A stretch of 64,000 nucleotides of DNA from Aphrocallistes beatrix (lineage: Eukaryota; Porifera; Hexactinellida; Sceptrulophora; Aphrocallistidae). Shown piece by piece: positions 2,414-43,555 of the stretch (position 1 is the first letter of the stretch; every line of letters begins with the position of its first letter). Position numbers and translations under genes: made by a program. Below the pieces are notes generated by a model. That model saw only the letters and a program-made list of their open reading frames with translations. It made no database searches and had not been told where the DNA came from. Location of the stretch: contig OY725496.1 of the NCBI GenBank assembly GCA_963281255.1, positions 1,426,001-1,490,000 on the forward strand, given 5' to 3'.

Positions 2414-3793
2414 CAGTCTGCCACACTATTATTTGCACCCATTAAGTAAAGCATAACTACAAGTAAAAGGAGGGAATCTAGATTTAATTGAACTATGTTG
2501 ACACCCTCAGTGTAACTATGCATTGGAGATATAATTTATTCAATAATTAATTTTCTTCCCTTCGGAAGCTATTACCAAACCGCATCGCTTCCTCATAGAG
2601 CTAGTGAAGTTGCGGAGAAAAAGGGCTCAAAAGTTTCCCACTCCTCTCTTTGATCATTGTTTCCACATCGCGTATGCTTCTTGGGGCATTAACTTGTATT
2701 CTATGCTTGAGTACGGCCCATAAGTTTTCGATTGGGTTTAAATCAAGACTGTTTGAAGACCAATCGATAGTGCGGATGCCACGGAAATCTTTGTAGGCTG
2801 TGGACAATCTAGATTTGTGAATACTTGAATTATCTTCTTGTTTCCAGCCATGTTTCCAGCCATCTGGGTATAAAGTGCTGGCATTTTCGATTAGAACTTC
2901 ATTAAGAACATTACAATATGCTTGTAAATTAAATTTTTCTCTGAAAATGTGGACAGGTGTAGCCCCACGAGCTTGAGATACCACCCCAAATGTGGAGTTT
3001 GGGTGTATGCTTTAAGAGGTTTCGAACTGGCCTCTGAGATCCTTTAGTCCAGATGTGCAAATTGCCCACATTAAGCCAAATTGAGCATTCGTCGGTAAAA
3101 AACACCTTCTGCCAATGTATTAATCGATGTTTTTTAGCCCAAGCAACTCTCGTTTTCTCATGAGTAGGTGTGATATTAGGTCCTCTGACTGGAGCTTTTT
3201 TTGAATATCCCATTTTAATAAGGGTTCGCCTGACGGTTTCATGGGACACATTCAGACCTCTTGAAGAGTTTAAATTGTTAGCCATTGATCTTAATGAGAC
3301 TCGGGGATTGTTTTTAACAACTAGAGATAAAGAGATCTTATCGTTTCTTGCTATTTTACACTTGACCAGCTCATTTTCTATGTTCCATATTTTCCCCCTT
3401 AGCGAGCCTAGATTTTGTATACAAGACAGTCTTCTGAGAGACATCACACCTTTTTGTATAGCTTCAATTGAAAGTGCAGTGTTTGAAATAAGTTCAGCTA
3501 CTCTCTTTCTACGCTCTCTCTGCATTTTACACTGGTTTTATGGGAATAGAATAAAATTTCAGATAAAAATCTAACTTGATGGAAGAAAAAAACTAAAAAT
3601 AAAGCTGAAATATGGGTCAGACCCTTAAATTTTTAAAAAGAAGGGAAACCAGGCCAATTATTGAATAAATTAGTTTTAATTTATTGCCATAAATGATTGT
3701 CTAATCAATTGTAATACACTAAATTACTCATAAACCCAAATTATGGCTTGGTAATATTACTCTATATAGTGCAAATAATTACGTGACAGACTG
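2414..3793 (-). mobile_element. Tc1-like DNA transposon #2 with TA target duplication
   Basis: The ends begin CAGTCTGCCACACTATTATT on the left and, read inward on the other strand, CAGTCTGTCACGTAATTATT on the right. Both then continue TTGCAC. TA flanks both ends (2412-2413 and 3794-3795). The length of 1380 bp is normal for Tc1. The transposase gene is on the minus strand. Confidence 0.92.
2601..3525 (-). pseudogene. Tc1 transposase, one visible frameshift
   Basis: The N-terminal part (3525 down to about 2929) carries a helix-turn-helix region (RVAELISNTALSIEAI), then SRGLNVSHETVRRTLIKMGY, and the first catalytic aspartate in VFFTDECSIWL. The C-terminal part (2984 down to 2601) carries EDNSSIHKSRL and LDLNPIENLWAVLKHR, with 34 residues between the D and the E, so the DD34E set is still present. 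The two parts are in different frames that overlap at 2929-2984, which indicates one frameshift there. The family normally has about 340 residues and the pieces add up to close to that. Such enzymes cut and paste their own element at TA dinucleotides. Confidence 0.88.
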
Positions 3794-8678: not shown

Positions 8679-9993
8679 CGAGGAGTGCCCGATAAGTTTT
8701 TAGCCTTGAACATATATTAAGTCATTATTAACGAACCATACATTTTTCTTATAACTCGATACTTTACTAACTGGCTCTGTAAATCCTAGCTCTCTACTAT
8801 ATATTTTTCTGAAGTTTGCTACATTTTGTATGATGGCTCAGGCAAATATTACTGAAAATATTATCCTCACAAAAGAGCAAATTCGGGCAATTATTCTTTT
8901 TCAATTTAAAATGGATAAAACAATTGATGATTGTTACCAACAGTTAATACAAGCTTTCGGTAACGATGTTACATCTCTTGCTACTGTAAAAAACTGGTAC
9001 AGAGAGTTTAGAAGAGGAAATTTTGACCTTACTGACAAACCTAGACCAGGGTCGCCGTTGACTGCTTCGACCCCAGAGAACATCAGCGCAATTGAGAAGT
9101 TGGTACTTAATGATAAGCACATAACCTATAGACAGATTCAGTACGAGTTGGGTATCAGTAATGATGTGATCCAATTCATCCTACACGAAATTCTACACTT
9201 AACAAAAGTCTGTGCAAGGTGGATTCCAAGGTGGATTCCATTTGCTCAAACCTGAGCAGAAAGTAGCCCGAATTGATTGGTGCAAGAAAATGAAGTCAAA
9301 ATTCAAAAAAGGCACTTCTCCTCTGGTTTCCAAAGTGATTACGGGTGATGAAACATGGATTTATCATTATGACCCATAATCCAAAGAGCAGAGCCGTCAG
9401 TGGACTCCAATAGGTGAACCTCCCCCTCAAAAAGTTAGGAAAAGTCAGTATTCTAAGAAGCAAATGTATGCAATATTCTTTGATCCTAAAGGTATTCGTG
9501 CAGTAGTTGCACTAGAGAGTGGAAAAACAGTCTCTTCAGAATGGTACACCACTAGTTGCCTCCCAGAACTCATTCAAAATGTTCATAAAATGCGACCAGA
9601 AGATGGGACAAGGGGTTTACTGCTGCATCATGATAATGCAAGTTCACATAAGGCCCTGAAAACAAGGAAATTTATTGAAGAAACTGGCTTCGAGGAGTTA
9701 TCTCACCCACCCTACAGCCCAGATTTAGCTCCATGTGACTTCTGGCTCTTTCCTCGTATTAAGAAGAAGTTGAAGGGGAGGGTTTTCAGCAGCAATGATG
9801 AAGTGCGGTCAGCATTATCAGAGGCTTTGGAGGACATCCGAGAAAATGAGTTCGCCGAAGCTTTTGATAGTTGGTTTTGCAGAATGGACAAGTGTATTAA
9901 AGCTGGAGGAGAGTATTTTGAACAATTATAATAATGCATTCTATTATAATGCTGTTTTCGAATCAAGGCTAAAAACTTATCGGGCACCCCTCG
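8679..9993 (+). mobile_element. mariner element #1, almost complete
   Basis: The terminal inverted repeats are CGAGGAGTGCCCGATAAGTT on the left and, inverted, CGAGGGGTGCCCGATAAGTT on the right. TA is duplicated on both sides (8677-8678 and 9994-9995). The length of 1315 bp is typical for mariner. The host sequence is an older Helitron-like repeat, which gives the relative age. Confidence 0.95.
8830..9931 (+). pseudogene. mariner transposase, DD34D, few lesions
   Basis: The start at 8830 or 8833 gives MAQANITENIIL. The N-terminal helix-turn-helix region reads DKTIDDCYQQLIQAF and NWYREFRRGNFDLTDKPRPG. The catalytic set is the D in VITGDETWIYHYDP, the D in LLHHDNASSHKA, and the D in SPDLAPCDFWLFPRI, with 34 residues between the last two. 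After residue 128 the frame is lost where AGGTGGATTCCA stands twice in tandem (near 9220-9243). A stop also follows HYDP near 9377. Apart from these the full family length of about 350 residues is present, ending GEYFEQL. Such enzymes act alone, cutting at the terminal repeats and inserting at TA. Confidence 0.93.
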
Positions 9994-19592: not shown

Positions 19593-20743
19593 TACTACGT
19601 ACTGCATTAACATGGTATGGAGTTAGGTATTTCAACCTTCTGCATTTAGATAGAATATTTGTGGTATCTTCAAAATTATTAATTAAAAATAAATTCAAAG
19701 GTAGACATCAATCTCAAAAGTGAGTTCGCTGCCCGCAAAAAAATTCAAACAAGTCCAAAATGCCAGTGGAGCTCGTTAAAAGCATCCTTGATGATATATC
19801 AAAAGTCCAAGAAAGTCCACCTTTCGGAATCCAATTTTTGCAACCTATGCATGGCCGGCGCCATGTTTTATCGGCATTGGATGTCCTAAGAGGGATTTCT
19901 CTGAAATTGGGTGTCCATTTATGTAGGAATTAGGGTTGTAAAGGGTAGGAAACTTCCCGGGAATTTATAAGACCTGGAAATTTTCGGGAATTTTGGGAAT
20001 TTTCGTTTTTCTTTAATAACGAAAAATATAAGATTTACTGTGCCGACTATAATATTGTATATTAGCCCAGTTCTAAAATGCATCATTTTGTTTTTTCTGT
20101 TTGTATTTGCAATAAACCTGTCCTTGCTATACCATTATACATTAAATTTGGCAAGTACAGGTTGGCTCATAAGTTCTGATACAAGCTTCATTAGGTATAA
20201 AATTTTTTATACTCAAACAATCTTAGTAATTATGGTCTTTAGAGATCGTAATTCGAATATTTTCAATGGTTTTAAAAGATTTTTCGAGTCTAAGACCTGG
20301 AACTGTGTTTTGTAGGGTGAATTTTATGGAGAAAAAATGTGTCCTGGCACGCAGCGAAAATCGAGAATCAAGGTCACTGCTTCTGTAAAAAATGTCTTCA
20401 TAATCGATGTTCTATGACGATTTAGCACCAGATACCTTTTATTCACCATGGAATTATTTCATAAATCCATTGAATTCATTATCAGAAACGAGATAAAGTT
20501 ATAATTTCACTAGATCAAATTAGTGCATTTAGCAAAATCACCCAAAATTGCACTTTTTTCCACATCACCAAAAATCTATCCAAATGGTTCTCAATATGTA
20601 CTGATATAAACATCCTTTAATTCTACAAATTTAGAGTGTTCGAGGAAAATGTGAGAGCCAATTTTTCCTAGAATTTGAATACTCTAGAATGATCATTTGG
20701 AAAGCAGTGCCACAGTGGCTCAGAATGATTATTATCTTCAAAT

Positions 20744-20978
20744 AGACATTTAGAAGACTCTTAGACAGGTGGAATGTATTATTTGCATATGGGTTATCAA
20801 CCCTAAGGAGTCCATTGGTGCAATCAGATATTTTGTATGACTTCAATTTCTTAAATTATGACGTCACCATATTTTATAAAAATTCTTTGGCATTACTAAA
20901 CAGACATTTAGAAGACTCTTAGACAGGTGGAATGTATTATTTGCATATGGGTTATCAACCCTAAGGAGTCCATTGGTG
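20744..20978. repeat. 77-bp direct repeat, two copies 158 bp apart
   Basis: Copies at 20744-20820 and 20902-20978 are essentially identical. Each starts AGACATTTAGAAGACTCTTA and ends GGAGTCCATTGGTG. The copies lie downstream of the Transib gene. The inverted end CACCAATGG resembles a Transib-type terminus, and CACAGTGG occurs at 20711. Neither is proven to be the element border. Confidence 0.8.
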
Positions 20979-21192
20979 TGCCATCAGTATTATACTGCCT
21001 TGTTAGTAAGAACATTATATTTCTTTCTCGAAAAACGTTTGATAATATATTATAATATTTAAAAGTACTATATTATTATTTGACCCAAGGTAATGCATTG
21101 GCTAAACGAATTTGCATTTACTAGTAGTTTCCTCCTATTCATTTATAATTAACTAATCATCATTATTGAGCATTATTTCTATGAAAATGAAC

Positions 21193-23353
21193 CTACAGTT
21201 TACAATCTTTACAGAAAATGTCTGGTTCACACATTATAATTGATTTTACAATTATATCTTGCTGGGACAATTCTTGGGACGAGTCCTTTGACTGTTTAGT
21301 TTCAAATTTCTTGAAACTATTTCTCCTAATTGCCAGTAGAACGGGATCGCTTTGAGTTATAAGCCTTACGAAGATGTCTCTTACGTTATCTTCGAAGGAT
21401 GTTTTCCGCGCTAGTTTATCCCTGAATGAACGCACATATTTGTTTAGTGCTTCTATGCATTCCTCTGAGTAGAGCTTAAGCCCGTATCCATGATTGAAGC
21501 TAGAGATGAGTTCTGTTGAATGTACTAACCATTTGTGAAGGGAAGGGGTTATGCTAACCCAAGGGAAATTGACAATGTACATGTATGTCTCTTTACAAAT
21601 GCTATCAAGCTTGCAAACATCCAATTTATGACTGCTGTTGTAAACACGGAGTATGGCGCCAAGGTTTGTGTGGATAGTCTTAACTTTTTCTTTGTCTTCT
21701 GGGTTAATCGTAGAGGTAACCCACTTTAGAAAATCGCGCTTGTTGTTAAAGCAATCTCTCGCAACATTTCCTGTCGAACTTGTTCCCCCATCACAGGAAG
21801 GTTTCTTGCAATAACAAAGAACGAATTCTATTCATTGCATTCTTCACTCGGGAGGAGGTTGGGGACCACTTTGTCACACCTGCGTCGAGATGATATATCA
21901 GGAGCATTAGCCATCTAAATACACATAGGTAACTATGCAAGGGTGAAATAGCGAGAATGTCCTTCCCAGATATCGGAGGATGTGTGAAGCCAAATCTTGA
22001 ATTTGAATCCATTTTCAAAAAATCTTCAACATTGACATCATTGAAGATTTCAATTGCATCATGAATATGCCGATTGATTTGAAATCCATCACTTATTAGA
22101 GTTGTGTCTTTTAGTTGATTGTGATTTGCAGTACATAATTGACAGCTTGCTCCTCCAGCACTACTCAATGTTGCTGCCATTTTAGAATCAAATAGACTTC
22201 TAAATATCCTGACATTGACGTGCCCTCCTATAGTGTCAAATCCGGAATGTTCTATTTTAGAGGTTTCGTGATTGATCAGGGTTTTCATTATGAAATCGAC
22301 ATTTTCATGATTTTCTTTCAAAGACACCAATGTTATTGGTCTTGTTACGAATGGAGAATTTGGCGTATCATTTAACCATAATATCTGATTTTTGTTGTTC
22401 TTGATTGTGAGTATTCTAAAAGCAAAAAGGATAAAGCTTTTGGTTGAGAAGCCTATGTGGCTGTTAACTTGATTGTAAACCTTATGACTACCAGATCCGT
22501 CAAGGCCATCGGGTATTTCAATGTTTAAGGGAAAATGAGTTTCTTGTTTTGGTCCTATCTCCTCAATCAGTCTTTCGGTAGTAAATGATAGGATTTTCGA
22601 GTAGTTCATAGCGACGCCAATTGGGTAATTGTTGATGTTCTTCACTATTTCAATATCGTTTGACAATGCTAGTTGATGTCGATATAATGAGACCTTCCTA
22701 TAAGTTGGGACAATGAATCCTTCTGGTTTACAAATGAGCCTTAATTGTATGTATTTCCTCTTCCCAATTTCAAGGATATCAATGAGGGCTGCTGCCTTAT
22801 CGAAGACTAAAATGCAATTCGATGGTGCAAAGGCTCCTGTGGATATAATTTCCTTGCACACTTTAGTGGATTTTCGATCATATTCCCTTTGGGCAAGAAT
22901 TTCGAGAGATAGTGTTGCTATTTTCTTTGCATCAACTGATTCTCTTTTAGCAATAAAATTAATGTGATCAATTAGAATTGATAGTCGCTTCGTGAGAGAT
23001 TCAGTAGTTATATCAAGAATATGTTTTCGAGATGGTAATATATTCTCTTCAATAAACACTTCTTTCTCAGACGTAAAGTTTTTTGCTGAATTGTGGCTGA
23101 AAGAATCAGCAGAGATTGCCCCTTCTACATCATCGACAACTTCTTGGTGGTGAAAAAACACTTGACTATTCCAATTTTCAAGGCTCCCTGTCTTTCGAAA
23201 AACCTTTCGTTCCGAGATCAATCCTCTGAAACGGTATCTAAAGTGCTCAATTTCTGTTTGAGAAATCTGGAATAATTCCAGGAAATTCTTTGTAGCTTCA
23301 TTTACGCTATCATTGTTACTTTTTAGGAGGTCATACGCTTCCAGGTTATTCAT
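21193..23353 (-). pseudogene. Transib transposase (RAG1-core relative), one frameshift
   Basis: The gene starts at 23353 (MNNLEAYDLLKSNN). It reads 520 residues to 21791, then continues in another frame from about 21800 (GGTSSTGNVARDC) to the stop at 21193, about 715 residues in all, the normal Transib length. Recognisable features in order are PDGLDGSGSHK with the first catalytic aspartate near residue 282, LFDSKMAATLSSA with the second near 389, a CQLC zinc-binding pair at 404-407, LHKWLVH matching the H-x4-H zinc site of the RAG1 core, and LYSEECIEALNK with the catalytic glutamate. The tail TQSDPVLLAIRR is typical of Transib. Such enzymes form hairpins on flanking DNA as RAG1 does. One frameshift is visible near 21800, and the catalytic residues look intact. 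No RAG2-like gene is present. Confidence 0.92.
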
Positions 23354-23484
23354 TGTTCGAAGATAGATATATTCGAATTGGATGTTTGATGAATTTATTA
23401 TTTATTCGAATGTACTCCGCATCTTATTTATTTATGCTGATTCAAATTATTATACGCTCATTATTCGATTGAGTTAAATGCATA

Positions 23485-24580
23485 CATGGCCTACTTAATA
23501 TACGTCTATATATGTCACCGAGAAAGCCATAAAACGAAGAGGCCAGTTTTAACAAAGTCAAATTTCAATTAGACTGATAAATCAAAAACCGCTTCCGATA
23601 GATCTTTGAAATGTATTATTACCATATACAAACATTATATCAGTGTATCCAATTCCGCTGTCAAAGATTTGATATGTCATCATGTGATTGCGCAATAGGC
23701 TCTTTTTAGAGCGGAAAATGTTGTTGTTCTAGCTTATATTTCATATCGTTATCTGCATTTCCAATGCTTGATTTTTTGATAGAGCAACAATAGGAAGACC
23801 TCAAGCCACAAAATCTGAAAATTTTAGTTGGAATGTCTAAGCATTCCTCAGTTGCTATGAAAACAAAAAATTACACGTTTAAGCCAATAACTCGAAAAGT
23901 ATATATCGTAGACACTAAGAAATTATACCATTTAATCCGTAAACTATTACTTCTTATATGAGAATAATACTATTCACATGTCTATTTTCAATATGTTCGG
24001 AGTTATATAGGATTTTGTCGCATCTCATTACTTCTCTATAGATCGTGATAAAATCCTATATAACTCAGAACTTATTGAAAATAGACATGTGAATAGTATT
24101 ATTCTCATATAAGAAGTAATAGTTTACGGATTAAATGGTATAATTTCTTAGTGTCTACGATCTATACTTTTCGAGTTATTGGCTTAAACGTGTAATTTTT
24201 TGTTTCCATAGCAACTGAGGAATGCATAGACATTCCAACTAAAATTTACAGATTTTTTGGTTTGAGGTCTTCCTATTGTTGCTCTATCAAACAATCAAGC
24301 ATTAGAAATGCAGATAACGATGTTTATATAAGTTAGAACAGCAACATTTTCCGCTCTAAAAAGAGCCTATTGCGCCATCACATGATGACATATCAAATTT
24401 TTGACAGCGGAATTGGATACTCTGATATAATGTTTGTATATGGTAATAATACATTTCAACTGTCTATCGGAAGCGGTTTTTGATTTATCAGTCTAATTGA
24501 AATTTGACTTTGTTAAAACTGGCCTCTTCGTTTTATGGCCTTCTCGGTGACATATATAGCCGTATATTAAGTAGGCCATG
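23485..24580. mobile_element. 1.1-kb foldback palindrome with 7-bp duplication
   Basis: It begins CATGGCCTACTTAATATACG and ends with its complement. ATGCATA stands directly on both sides (23478-23484 and 24581-24587). The arms of about 530 bp are nearly identical and meet near 24040 at an ATTACTTCTCTATAGATCGT spacer. No coding sequence is seen. A diverged relative lies at about 35900-36650. Confidence 0.92.
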
Positions 24581-24587
24581 ATGCATA

Positions 24588-25589
24588 TGATATTTAAGTT
24601 CAGAAAATTAGCATTATACGAGTACAATTGAATACCATGAGAAGAAATAAAATGCACTATTTGATCGTTTTTAGCCATTGTTTTCAATCACATAGGGGAA
24701 AAACAGAGCTTATATTTAATAAGGTTCCTATAGAAAGAAAATGTAGAAAATACCATGTTATTTTCCAATGAGTTTAGTGGTAAATGTCCCAATAATATTC
24801 CAATTTCGGAGAATTCATAATATAGCATCGAATACAATGAAATAATATGCACCGTTTGATGCTATTATTATACATTGTTTCTTATTGCACAAGGAGAAAA
24901 CATAACTATCTAAAGGTTTCCCCCAGTATAGAACAACAATTAAGTATAACACAATGTATTTATCCACTGGTCTTATTAATTTGATGTGAATACGTTCGAA
25001 TTTTTAACAAACCACAATAAGTGAAAATATTTTATGAATCCAAAAATATTGGTCCGATTAGGCTTAGGTGAGCTGAAAGAGGTTCTTTCCGCCTTCGTGC
25101 TATCCTAAACCCCATACATAAAACATGCAAAATCGAGCAAGCTTTTAGATAAGCAATGTCTTGTATAACCCATATGAATCCACAAGAAGTTACAGCTTGT
25201 ATAAGCTGATAAAACTTTGTTCTAAAATGGTGCCTCTATAGTTACTTCTATCTAATTACCATTACAATATAGCGCCTGAAATTTAGTTTTATCAAAAAGA
25301 TCACGAAATTTTGATCTAGAATCTTCCATTTTGAAGAAAACTTCAGTTGTATTTTGCGATTCACAAACATTTGCAAAATGTGAGAATCTATGAATCCCAA
25401 TAAACATCGAATTTTGAATTCTGGTCACAACCATATAATAAGGAATAGCTCGCAAAATACGAAGTCAATCGTAGTTTCTTTCTGGTCATAGGGTAATCAA
25501 TATCGCTGGAAACGAATATCACAATATCGAATCGATTTGAAGTAGTAAAAAGATTTCCTATTCGGACATTCTGCTCCATAGTGCAGTGG
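24588..25589. other. Upstream flank of the Transib gene, with a diverged direct repeat
   Basis: No gene is recognised. Two segments, about 24620-24730 and 24830-24930, are similar (GAATACMATGARA, AATRTGCAC, TTTGAT, ACATAGGGGAAAAAC / CACAAGGAGAAAACA). They may be subterminal parts of the Transib or of the long-inverted-repeat element. Confidence 0.4.
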
Positions 25590-26486
25590 GCCCCGATTCT
25601 CGATTTTCGCTGCATGCTAAGACACATTTTTTCCTCATAAAAATCACCATACAAAACATAGTTCCAGGTCTTAAACTCTAAAAATCTTTTGAAATCATTG
25701 AAAATATTCGAATTACGATCTCTAAAGATCATAATAACTAAGATTCTTCGAGTATAAGAAATATTTTATACCTAATCAAGCTTGGTACAGAACTTATGAG
25801 CCACCCTGTAGATATGAAAAGTCCATCTAATTTGCATCTCGGTATACGATTTTCCAACCAGCCACTATTTTTGTATTCAATATTTTGAATCACAAGATTC
25901 AGAACAATTATAGCCAATATACTTTGCATTTCAATGGAGTTAAATAAAACTCGGTTAATGTAGCCAATATATTATTATAAGCTAAGGTTCTGTTTATCTC
26001 ATATCAGTTTTAACTTAATAACTAGTCAGAAACGTATCGTTAAATTATTTGATAGGTTTCCCGATTGTTATACGTATATAGAAGAATCGGATAACTTATA
26101 CTTACAACTAGTATTCGATTTTGTATTACATTTATTATTGATCCATCTTGAATCAGTTCGGCACTGGTTGTATAATTTACATTTTTTTTACATTTTTCCT
26201 TTATTCTTTGAGTATTTAGAGGCAAATGAAGAAAGGTTTTAATTGAATTCAATTTATTTTCCTCAGAGAATTACCTCGGAAACAATCAGATTTATTTAAA
26301 CACTGCAGAAATTTCCAGGTCTTATAAATTCGCGGGAATATTCCCGGAAAGTTTCCTGGAAAGTTTCCACATTTAAAATTCCCGGGAATTTTGCAACCCT
26401 AGGTGGAATATATACTATACAATTACATAAAATAGGAGACTGTAGGTGTTCGGACACCTAGGACACCCCCGGTGGTGCTGGCCCTG

Positions 26487-33450: not shown

Positions 33451-34065
33451 GCGCTTCGCTTGCTTGGGCTAGCGGACACTTTGTATTCGCCGGAAGAGCC
33501 CTTTGGGCGCCTGGAGTCACATTTATTAATAATAAGGGAGATAACATCCCTAAATACGCGTGTCCTACTGTTACAGGGTGGGGCATAAGTTCTGCAACAA
33601 GCTTCATTAGGTATAAAATTTCTTATACTGAAACAATCTTAGATATTATGGTCTTTAGAGATTGTAATTCAAATATCCTCAATGGTTTAAAAGATCTTTC
33701 GAGTCCAAGTCCTAGAACTGTGTTTTGTATGGTGAGTTTTTTAAATGATGCGTTACATTGACGTCATAACAGAGTGATGATAGACAGTTTCACATGTTAA
33801 AAATATTAATATACACATTCTATCAAAATTTCAGTTAGAGTTATAGTCGAAAAACTGAAATTTCAAATTATTAAAAAGGTGACAATGACGTCATAATTCC
33901 ATGAAGATTCGACATTTTCGTCTCAGCTCACAACTTTGTGGAGCCATAGCTAAAATACTCTCACATGGAAAAATTCAGCTTTTTGTGCCTGGCAGTTTCT
34001 TCAATCAATTCGTTACAGATATATATATATACTATAGTGTATTAATAGAGTTTTAATAGTAAAGA
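33451..34065 (-). mobile_element. Helitron-like repeat copy 11, interrupted
   Basis: Hairpin end GCGCTTCGCTTGCTT at 33451 and the 5' end near 34065 (TTAATAGAGTTTTAATAGTA). The one-armed element at 33574-33747 is inserted within it. Confidence 0.85.
33574..33747 (+). mobile_element. One-armed copy of the CAGGGTGG long-inverted-repeat family
   Basis: CAGGGTGGGGCATAAGTTCT after TA, then ACAAGCTTCATTAGGTATAA, as at 20158-20330. The second arm is missing. Confidence 0.75.
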
Positions 34066-35899: not shown

Positions 35900-36650
35900 T
35901 AACTCATATCGTAATTGGAATGGCTATGCATTCCCGATTGCTATAGAAACAAAAAATTGAATGTTTAAGCCATAACTTAAAAGGTATAGCACGTAGACAC
36001 TAAGAAATTATACCATTCAATCCGCAAGCTGTTACTTCCTAAATAATAATAATACTGTTCATGTGTTTATTTTCGATGCTCTCTGAGTTCTCTAGGATTT
36101 TGTCGCTCCTCATTACTTCTCTATAGATCGTGATAAAATTGTAGCTAACTCAGATAATGTTTAAAATAAATACATGAACAGTATTAGTAGCATGTAGGAA
36201 GTAATAATTTGCAGATTGAATGATGTAATATCTTTGATTCTGCGAGCTGTACCTTTGAGTTATGGCTTAAACATCCTATTTTTTATTTCCATAGCAACTG
36301 AGGAATGCGTAAACATTCCAATTTAGATTTCCATATTTTCAGGATTTAGGCTTTTCTATTGTTGCTCTCTCAAATTATCAAGCATTAGGAATGCAGATAA
36401 CGATGTTTAAAATCAGCTAGAGCAGCAGCACTTTCGTTCTATAAAGAGCCATAGCGCAATCACATGACGACAATTTTTGACAGCTGAAATGCATACCCTG
36501 ATATGATGTTTGTATATTGCAATAATTCATTTCAATGGTCTATTGTATGCCGTTTTGATTTTCGTTCTAATTAAACTTTGAACTGTGCCAAAACTTGCCC
36601 ACTATTTTTCATGCCTTCTCGCTGACATACAATATGCCAGTGTAATCATT
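35900..36650. mobile_element. CATGGCC-type foldback, diverged copy
   Basis: It matches the 23485-24580 foldback in order: ATGCATTCCCGATTGCTATA, GCACGTAGACACTAAGAAAT, the central ATTACTTCTCTATAGATCGT, then the inverted arm to GCCTTCTCGCTGACATACAA. The left terminal part is missing. Confidence 0.82.
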
Positions 36651-42059: not shown

Positions 42060-42791
42060 TTACTTGAAGTCATTAAAATACAACGTAGCATATCTTCCGT
42101 CAATACAGCAATCAGTACACTCAAAAGCCCAATCCTCACATTCTTCATCCTCAATTTTTAGAATAGCAGCATCATCTAAATGCTCCAGGTGCGTATCGAA
42201 ACTGGGCGAGTGGACACATGTGTCATCAACAAATTCCTCTACATTCGGACACCCTCGTACAGCCTGGTCTACCGCTCGCTGATAGGTAGCCTGTGAGTTT
42301 GACAATCCAAAAGGCATGCGGTTGAATTCAAACTGGCCGCGCGTTGAAACAAACGCAGTAAACTCCCTATGCTTTTCCTTCACAAGCACGCTCCAGTATG
42401 CGGATGCCCCATCCAGTGTAGAGAATACAGTTGCCCCTCCCATACGATCGAAAACATCTCGGGGATCCGGCATCGGATAGGCATCTCGCTTCGTCACATC
42501 GTTGAGATCCCGGTAATCTACGGCAAATCGATGGGTCCCGTTCTTTTTCTTCACTAAGATCACTCGACTCGCCCAAGAGGAAGAAGAGGGACGTATGATC
42601 CCATTCTCGAGCATTTCATCTATCTGCTTGAATACCTCCGCCCCAATTTCCGGAGAAACACGCAACGGCCGGCTTCTGGTCGGCCGCTCATCCAGAAGAG
42701 TGATAACGTGTCCCGCGGTTCCAATTTCGCGAAAACGTCTTTCCATCTCGACAGCAACTTGCAAGTTGGATTTTCTTGAGACTTGGTCCAT
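42060..42791 (-). mobile_element. Ty3/gypsy reverse transcriptase fossil, broken
   Basis: A minus-strand fragment of an LTR-retrotransposon polymerase. Reverse transcriptase landmarks in order are VILVKKKNGTHRFAVDYRDL, TVFSTLDGASAYW, FNRMPFGLSNSQATYQR and the EEFVDD active-site region. No LTR, integrase or gag is seen beside it. Its upstream border abuts the truncated Tc1 at 42792. It is a broken piece of an old copy. Confidence 0.85.
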
Positions 42792-43555
42792 ATTCCTACA
42801 GTCCCTCTATTTAACCAGATAGAGCATTCATCGGTGAAGAAAACATTTTCCCATTCCCTCTTTTTATGAATTTTATACCATTCAACTCTCTTTTTTGCAG
42901 TTTCATCGGTAATGAATGGTCCAATAACAGGGGATCTAAAGTCAAATCCACACGAGAGTCGCTCGATAGACAGTCGACTTGGATGGGGTATCTGTGAACT
43001 TAGATGAAAGGTTTGCGTGGAGAGAACGTGTGGACATCTTCGGATTACAGTTTAAAGGTCTTATAATTGATTGTTTTTGTGAATATGTAATAACTTTCGG
43101 CCGTCCACTAACACTCTTGTGTTGTAAGCTTTTCCCTTCACGAACCATAGATTTTATGCGAAAAACTGTTCTTATCGGTATCCGCGTTCTTCGAGAAATT
43201 TCAGTTGGGATGTGATTCCTGCATCGATTAGAGTTTTTACCTTCTTCCTCTGTTCTAATTGAGTCATTCTAAGGCTTAATAAAGGTGAATAATCTAAAAA
43301 CATGCCAATTAATACTCAAGTGATCAGCTTCGGCGAGCTGAAAAATCCAAATTGTACTTTTTAGTAGACACTCTTTTGGTTGATGGAGTATCTACTCAAT
43401 TGGTATATAAAAAATTCAATTGAACTTGATAAATGTCATGAGAAATATCATCGCATAAAATTTCAAGTGAAACAATGATTGAAAACTACATCAAATTCAA
43501 TAGGCACATGATTCATGTTACTATAATTGATTGCCAATACTTTTGAAACACACTG
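42792..43555 (-). mobile_element. Tc1-like DNA transposon #4, left part missing
   Basis: The right end, inverted, is CAGTGTGTTTCAAAAGTATT with TA at 43556-43557. The terminal repeat is that of Tc1 #1. The minus strand shows the N-terminal half of the transposase: VREGKSLQHKSVSGRPKVIT (42942-43148), then PVIGPFITDE and FFTDECSIWLN with the first catalytic aspartate. The C-terminal half and the left end are missing, replaced by the Ty3/gypsy fossil. Confidence 0.85.

Follow-up and report, generated by a model that had tools for sequence, protein, structure and literature searches.

A Transib transposon in the sponge Aphrocallistes beatrix and a conserved region at the 3′ ends of its families

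A 64,000-nucleotide stretch of the Aphrocallistes beatrix genome (the window) contains what is almost certainly a cut-and-paste DNA transposon of the Transib superfamily. The Transib interpretation of the first-pass annotation is supported. In all six families that were read to both ends, approximately 160 bp of non-coding sequence are conserved at the gene-downstream end only. RAG1, the enzyme that cuts antibody genes, and the V(D)J recombination signals are thought to have descended from Transib-like elements.

Copies, limits and ends of the element

The genome compared comprised 100.5 Mb in 28 contigs. Further copies, which the first-pass annotation had proposed to look for, were sought with the protein; at least 89 matching stretches were returned, a count in which one copy may appear as several overlapping pieces. 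Six two-ended families were distinguished: A (the window, L009, L011 and L012), B (L024–L026, L028 and L030), C (L018 and L020), D (L019), E (L022) and F (L023). Divergent copies with one end or none (e.g. L033, L036, L037 and L044) were left out of the end counts. At the loci read, the family E transposase was broken and that of family F was incomplete, and the 3′ ends of these two families were assigned by the orientation of the damaged gene.

The ends of the window element were set at 20711 and 25583 by comparison with copies on C14, C13, C6 and C17. The first-pass annotation had placed a nearly full-length Transib transposase at 21193–23353; the transposase is there, on the minus strand, but the whole element extends well beyond it on both sides. 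The following features were assigned:

20711..25583, minus strand (gene strand): Transib element of family A, nested palindrome included; boundaries common to the C14, C6 and C17 copies, heptamer-like ends
20705..20709, no strand: left copy of the target-site duplication CAGTG, with an extra C at 20710 before the element
25584..25588, no strand: right copy of the target-site duplication CAGTG
20711..20746, plus strand: 3′ (gene-downstream) terminal repeat with heptamer CACAGTG; second block starts 26 bp in
25557..25583, minus strand: 5′ (gene-upstream) terminal repeat with CACTATG; second block starts 17 bp in
23485..24580, no strand: nested palindromic insertion of 1096 bp in the 5′ non-coding part, with the 7-bp sequence ATGCATA on both sides

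The 3′ (left) end of the window element opens with CACAGTGGCTCAGAATG and the 5′ end (right, read inward) with CACTATGGAGCAGAATG. The ends of family A are Transib-like (CACAGTGG and CACTATGG), those of families B–F are CACAGTGG or CACAATGG, and the terminal inverted repeats of all families A–F start with CAC and resemble the RSS heptamer, as Transib ends do.

Target-site duplications of 5 bp, also as in Transib, were scored at 15 two-ended insertions, one of them the D-type deletion derivative inside L029; L022 was taken from a scan in which a duplication was demanded, the L023 duplication was read by eye, and the C13 copy was left out, with approximately 350 bp at its 3′ end unmatched. Nine insertions had exact adjacent duplications, four (window, L011, L025 and L022) had an exact duplication with one extra base, one (L009) matched at 4 of 5 bases and one had none. 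The Transib-like ends and 5-bp duplications sought by the first-pass annotation were thus recovered, with at least four of the five bases duplicated at 14 of the 15 insertions. The extra base, which lies at 20710 in the window and at the right ends of L011, L025 and L022, falls between the duplication and CAC, as if the cut in these 4 of 15 insertions had been made one base outside the element. The nested derivative (L029:327-1458) lies inside a family B transposase gene without a target duplication, and approximately 5 bp of the interrupted gene are missing at the site. None of the sequences compared contained an empty (uninterrupted) version of the window insertion site.

Other repeats were noted in and around the element. 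The C14 and C13 copies lack the 1096-bp palindrome, whose matches in Rfam were weak ones to miRNA families, all under the gathering scores. A long palindromic (foldback) element at 35912–36629 is 79% like it. On either side of the Transib lies a copy of another repeat (20156–20369 and 25595–25810, inverted, ~89% alike), a third copy of which is at 33572–33740; the Transib may have been inserted within or beside a larger palindromic repeat. The window as a whole is rich in transposons, with pieces of Tc3-type and Mos1-type transposases and of a reverse transcriptase at 2932–3537, 8755–9928 and 42063–42806 (Pfam).

The conserved 3′ region and the unequal spacers

Two features describe the 3′ region in the window:

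20711..20880, plus strand: conserved 3′ end region; six families align over 170 gap-free columns, and the TATTATTTGCATATGGGTTATC box starts 66 bp in
20898..20978, plus strand: incomplete repeat of the 3′ region, 81 nt at 99% identity, offset inward by 158 bp

When aligned with MAFFT, the six 3′ ends gave 170 columns with zero gaps and the six 5′ ends gave 224 columns with gaps, of which 17 were invariant. Over offsets 40–165, the mean pairwise identity of the 3′ ends was 0.60 in register and 0.25–0.30 at shifts of 1 to 6, and that of the 5′ ends in register was 0.31. Forty-nine columns of the 3′ region were invariant, and 41 of these lay beyond column 20, where 0.5 were expected (maximum 4 in 500 shuffles); the shuffles take no account of how the families are related, for which the shifted registers and the 5′ ends control better. 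A box near TATTATTTRCATATGGGTTATC started 66 bp from CAC in one representative each of the six families, and 67 bp from it in L041.

A matrix of columns 55–160, built from the six ends, which score high by construction, gave 46 matches above 20 in the locus sequences compared, a count in which overlapping loci appear more than once. Two of these matches fell in the 64-kb window, both at the 3′ end of family A and with no others elsewhere in it; the top scores of two shuffled windows were −16 and −20. The number of modules varied: two units in family B, in which the module is repeated 158 bp further in (scores 70–73), one and a part in family A, in which the second is partial (scores 33–35), and one in families C–F. 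The E-like copy L040 had lost part of the tip and kept the 3′ region. A reading of 158 bp as 15 helical turns was dropped, as the family B module recurs whole and 158 bp is therefore the unit length, and no helical phasing of the invariant 3′ columns was detected (R at most 0.12, null 95% value 0.29). Coding was rejected as well: stops interrupted 35 of 36 family-by-frame cases, the exception being one minus-strand frame of family B, and the invariant columns lacked a strong codon phase.

The region is new within the literature on Transib ends that was covered (parts of the text of the papers, apart from figures and Repbase), in which no mention of it was found; this holds for the portions consulted of PMC8355894, PMC8289069, PMC7204232, PMC4411706, PMC6941560, PMC11844651 and PMC9885083.

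What the region does is a question on which two readings compete. That it has no part in docking, and instead marks the end of the transcript, contributes to a promoter, serves a host factor or has been recombined among the families, has not far from an even chance. Its position downstream of the gene would suit a transcript-end signal, but such a signal needs no fixed distance from the tip, and the 170 columns are free of gaps. TATGACGT occurs in the region in four of the six families, and three of those four also contain TGACGTCA, which we take to be an ATF/CREB site. Transibs nested in Transibs (L029) make exchange of the region possible; recent exchange, however, would give high identity in a few pairs, whereas values of 0.54–0.69 were obtained in 15 of 15 family pairs. 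Derivatives that have lost the gene also retain the region, namely L011 (score 112.8), the element nested in L029 (107.1) and L012, the last at a low ungapped score (25.6) that suggests a small indel. From these sequence comparisons, we tentatively interpret the 3′ region as a docking module that would make the two ends unequal.

The ends also differ in spacing. A second block is common to both and lies 9 bp further in at the 3′ end, clearly in three of the six families, weakly in two and not at all in one. The block starts 17 and 26 bp in at the two ends of families A and B and 18 and 27 bp in at those of family C (by its GGGAGTTG), and is weaker and slightly nearer the tip in families D and E. 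Summed over the six families, the shift of +9 scored 42 (A 8, B 10, C 10, D 5, E 7, F 2) and the next-best shift 18, while the best score at any shift was 26 in 300 shuffles and pairing the ends of different families gave a maximum of 29 in 265 derangements. The difference is absent in F, tied with other shifts in D, and second best in E, which prefers −2; D and E, related families with 74% DNA identity, are not independent in this comparison. The ends are not 12/23 signals: the heptamer CACAGTG is present, but the positions of the second block are 9 bp apart and vary by family. Unequal Transib ends have already been reported (PMC8355894, in the part consulted; PMC9435367).

The transposase and its relatives

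The gene of the window copy was annotated as follows:

21794..23353, minus strand: N-terminal frame of the transposase; 520 codons, stop at 21791–21793; both catalytic Asp and C-x2-C
21196..21831, minus strand: C-terminal frame of the transposase; 212 codons, stop at 21193–21195; H-x4-H and catalytic Glu
22499–22501, minus strand: catalytic D285 (P0001)
22187–22189, minus strand: catalytic D389 (P0001)
21451–21453, minus strand: catalytic E127 (P0002)
22142–22144 and 22133–22135, minus strand: zinc-site C404 and C407 (P0001)
21535–21537 and 21520–21522, minus strand: zinc-site H99 and H104 (P0002), in LHKWLVH
22865..23131, minus strand: region like the RAG1 nonamer-binding domain (NBD), residues 75–163; weak in the single sequence, with RAG1 best when family profiles are used

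The open frame of P0001 (520 aa) runs from 23401 to 21791 on the minus strand, with its first Met at 23353, and is overlapped by that of P0002 (212 aa; 21831–21193). A single frame break is visible in the ORF listing, between 21791 and 21831, in agreement with the one frameshift that had been placed near 21800. The three catalytic positions, the CxxC pair and the H-x4-H site that the first-pass annotation had read from the sequence were all located and aligned to HzTransib (6pqn); in the phmmer alignments, the DDE acids fall in the columns of D109, D208 and E419 of the 6pqn chain. The HzTransib triad is given as D126/D225/E436 in the portion consulted of PMC6941560, a constant offset of 17. 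The window transposase thus has the DDE triad and C-x2-C/H-x4-H zinc site of a Transib. The transposase gene of the window copy has lost its continuous reading frame, and the ends of the copy might be intact enough for a relative's protein to act on them.

When each half was searched apart against PDB using phmmer, 6pqn was the top match (4.8e-9 and 8.1e-10), at E-values that exclude chance as the source of the Transib likeness, and the next matches were to RAG1 or RAG1L (0.0015 and 0.088 for the two halves). A profile of five family proteins, applied to PDB, likewise placed 6pqn first (1.6e-41), well ahead of amphioxus RAG1L (5e-15) and RAG1 (4.3e-14), and the outcome that the first-pass annotation had named as refuting, a better score for another DDE superfamily, did not arise; the core is thus homologous to that of Transib transposases. 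The Pfam RAG1 model matched the first half of the window protein at 0.11 only, under the cut-off, and four of the five family proteins at E up to 1 (best 1.7e-6). No relatives were found in scans of viral contigs and of bacterial and archaeal genomes, and the ends were accordingly compared within this genome.

These comparisons make it very unlikely that the element is a RAG-like transposon of the ProtoRAG type, carrying RAG1L and RAG2L, rather than a Transib. RAG1L and RAG1 are the next-best matches, but at the distance given above, and although an NBD-like domain and unequal ends are also known from RAGL elements, the ORF listing shows no second large ORF: apart from the transposase frames, the longest ORF that overlaps the element has 125 aa and continues beyond its limit, and the uninterrupted family C element, of 3065 bp with 712 codons, has only ~0.9 kb left in all. 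Families B and C (L026 and L018) end in a zinc-knuckle-like C-x2-C-x3-G-H-x5-C, near the RAG1L tail motif C-x2-C-x3-G-H-x4-C given in the part consulted of PMC7204232 and one residue longer than it; the G-H tail motif is missing from both the window copy and family D.

The family proteins have ~160–175 residues ahead of the part that matches HzTransib, residues that the solved HzTransib chain lacks. In sequence, this N-terminal part resembles the RAG1 NBD. A five-sequence N-terminal profile placed the RAG1 NBD (3gna) first in PDB at 1.7e-5, followed by more RAG1 entries, and the best non-RAG1 match was a designed helical protein (0.0036); with six sequences, the values were 8.2e-6 for RAG1 and 0.013 for the first other protein. 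The region lies directly ahead of the core, in the same place as in RAG1. AlphaFold models had a mean pLDDT of 47.3 (726-aa protein) and 64.6 (N-terminal 201 residues), too weak to support an NBD, and in a Foldseek search the weak 201-residue model gave 0 matches at E ≤ 0.001, with RAG1 absent among the 43 listed. An NBD equivalent in Transibs has been reported (PMC9435367), and the NBD-like domain and the unequal spacers are both features known in kind.

Activity, comparison with known systems and meaning

Uninterrupted full-length transposases were found at 5 of 13 loci (L018, L019, L025, L026 and L030, of 712, 720, 726, 726 and 726 aa), all in the three sister families B, C and D. That the Transibs of this genome are all old fossils, with no sign of recent movement, is highly improbable: all three long family A copies are broken and many of the matching stretches hold stops, but the five family B elements differ by a K2P of only 0.0015–0.008 over ~3.4 kb and three of them carry the 726-aa ORF. 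Four of the five have exact adjacent duplications and the fifth has one extra base, and the duplications differ, which argues against segmental duplication. The three family A transposase regions differ by a K2P of 0.0196–0.0256, plus indels, and the other two long copies both contain stops. The family A copies on C6 and C17 share an identical deletion junction (21419/24738) at different sites, which indicates that a gene-deleted derivative of this family has moved. An ORF in the same locus as the C6 copy (L011, 1723–2724, reverse strand, in reverse-complement coordinates) has a start that presumably resembles a THAP domain. The recent activity suggested by the first-pass annotation fits the lineage, with its near-identical family B copies and intact ORFs, better than the window copy; since the latter is interrupted by a frame break and carries a nested insertion, and the two remaining long copies of family A are likewise broken, the wording is limited to the lineage. 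A domesticated host gene, which the largely kept reading frame might suggest, can be dismissed almost entirely, as the transposase gene occurs in many copies, is bounded by Transib ends and a duplication, and is disrupted both in the window copy and in the other long copies of family A.

Among known systems, HzTransib of Helicoverpa zea shares with the window element the triad positions, the Transib group and 5-bp duplications, and is the best match of both halves; its ends are described as symmetric in the portion consulted of PMC8289069, whereas those here are unequal. Transibs with asymmetric ends include Drosophila Transib5 and Anopheles Transib2 and N1–N3 (PMC8355894, in part) and subgroups I and II (PMC9435367). 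They share with the elements here bipartite ends with unequal spacers, have a reported NBD equivalent and carry one transposase gene, which probably holds here as well, but those of PMC8355894 are described, in the part consulted, as 12/23, while the difference here is 9; a conserved 3′ region is unmentioned in the consulted text, figures apart. The ends of AanRAGL from Aureococcus anophagefferens consist of 13 bp, a 4/13-bp spacer and 10 bp (PMC9435367), and the second block, computed from these published ends, is 17 and 26 bp in, the positions that it has in families A and B; AanRAGL has RAG1L and RAG2L genes, however, and the shorter families here seem to be without room for RAG2L. With jawed-vertebrate RAG1 and its 12/23 signals, the elements have in common CACAGTG, a DDE core with C-x2-C/H-x4-H, an NBD-like domain and two spacer lengths. 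They differ in that the spacer difference is 9 here and 11 there, the second block here varies by family, the protein belongs to a transposon here and is a recombinase there, and no RAG2 appears in the ORF listing.

By analogy with the published biochemistry of HzTransib and RAG, transposases would pair both ends and nick just outside CAC, leaving hairpins on the flanks, and the freed ends would be joined 5 bp apart at a new site. Less firmly, the N-terminal NBD-like domain may read the second block, whose distance from the tip differs between the ends, and the conserved 3′ region may serve in docking or assembly and thereby make the roles of the two ends unequal. Taken together, it is conceivable, with doubt outweighing confidence, that the ends are functionally unequal, with a rigid ~160-bp docking module and a longer spacer at the 3′ end and a short 5′ end, and that N-terminal helical and NBD-like domains read this arrangement.

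By itself, the window copy is ordinary. If its ends and those of its relatives do work in this way, polar, spacer-coded end pairing by a RAG1-type enzyme would need no RAG2 to function, and living elements could be used to test how the 12/23 rule began. With several Transib families, intact genes, near-identical copies and unequal ends, the genome offers material on end discrimination without RAG2.
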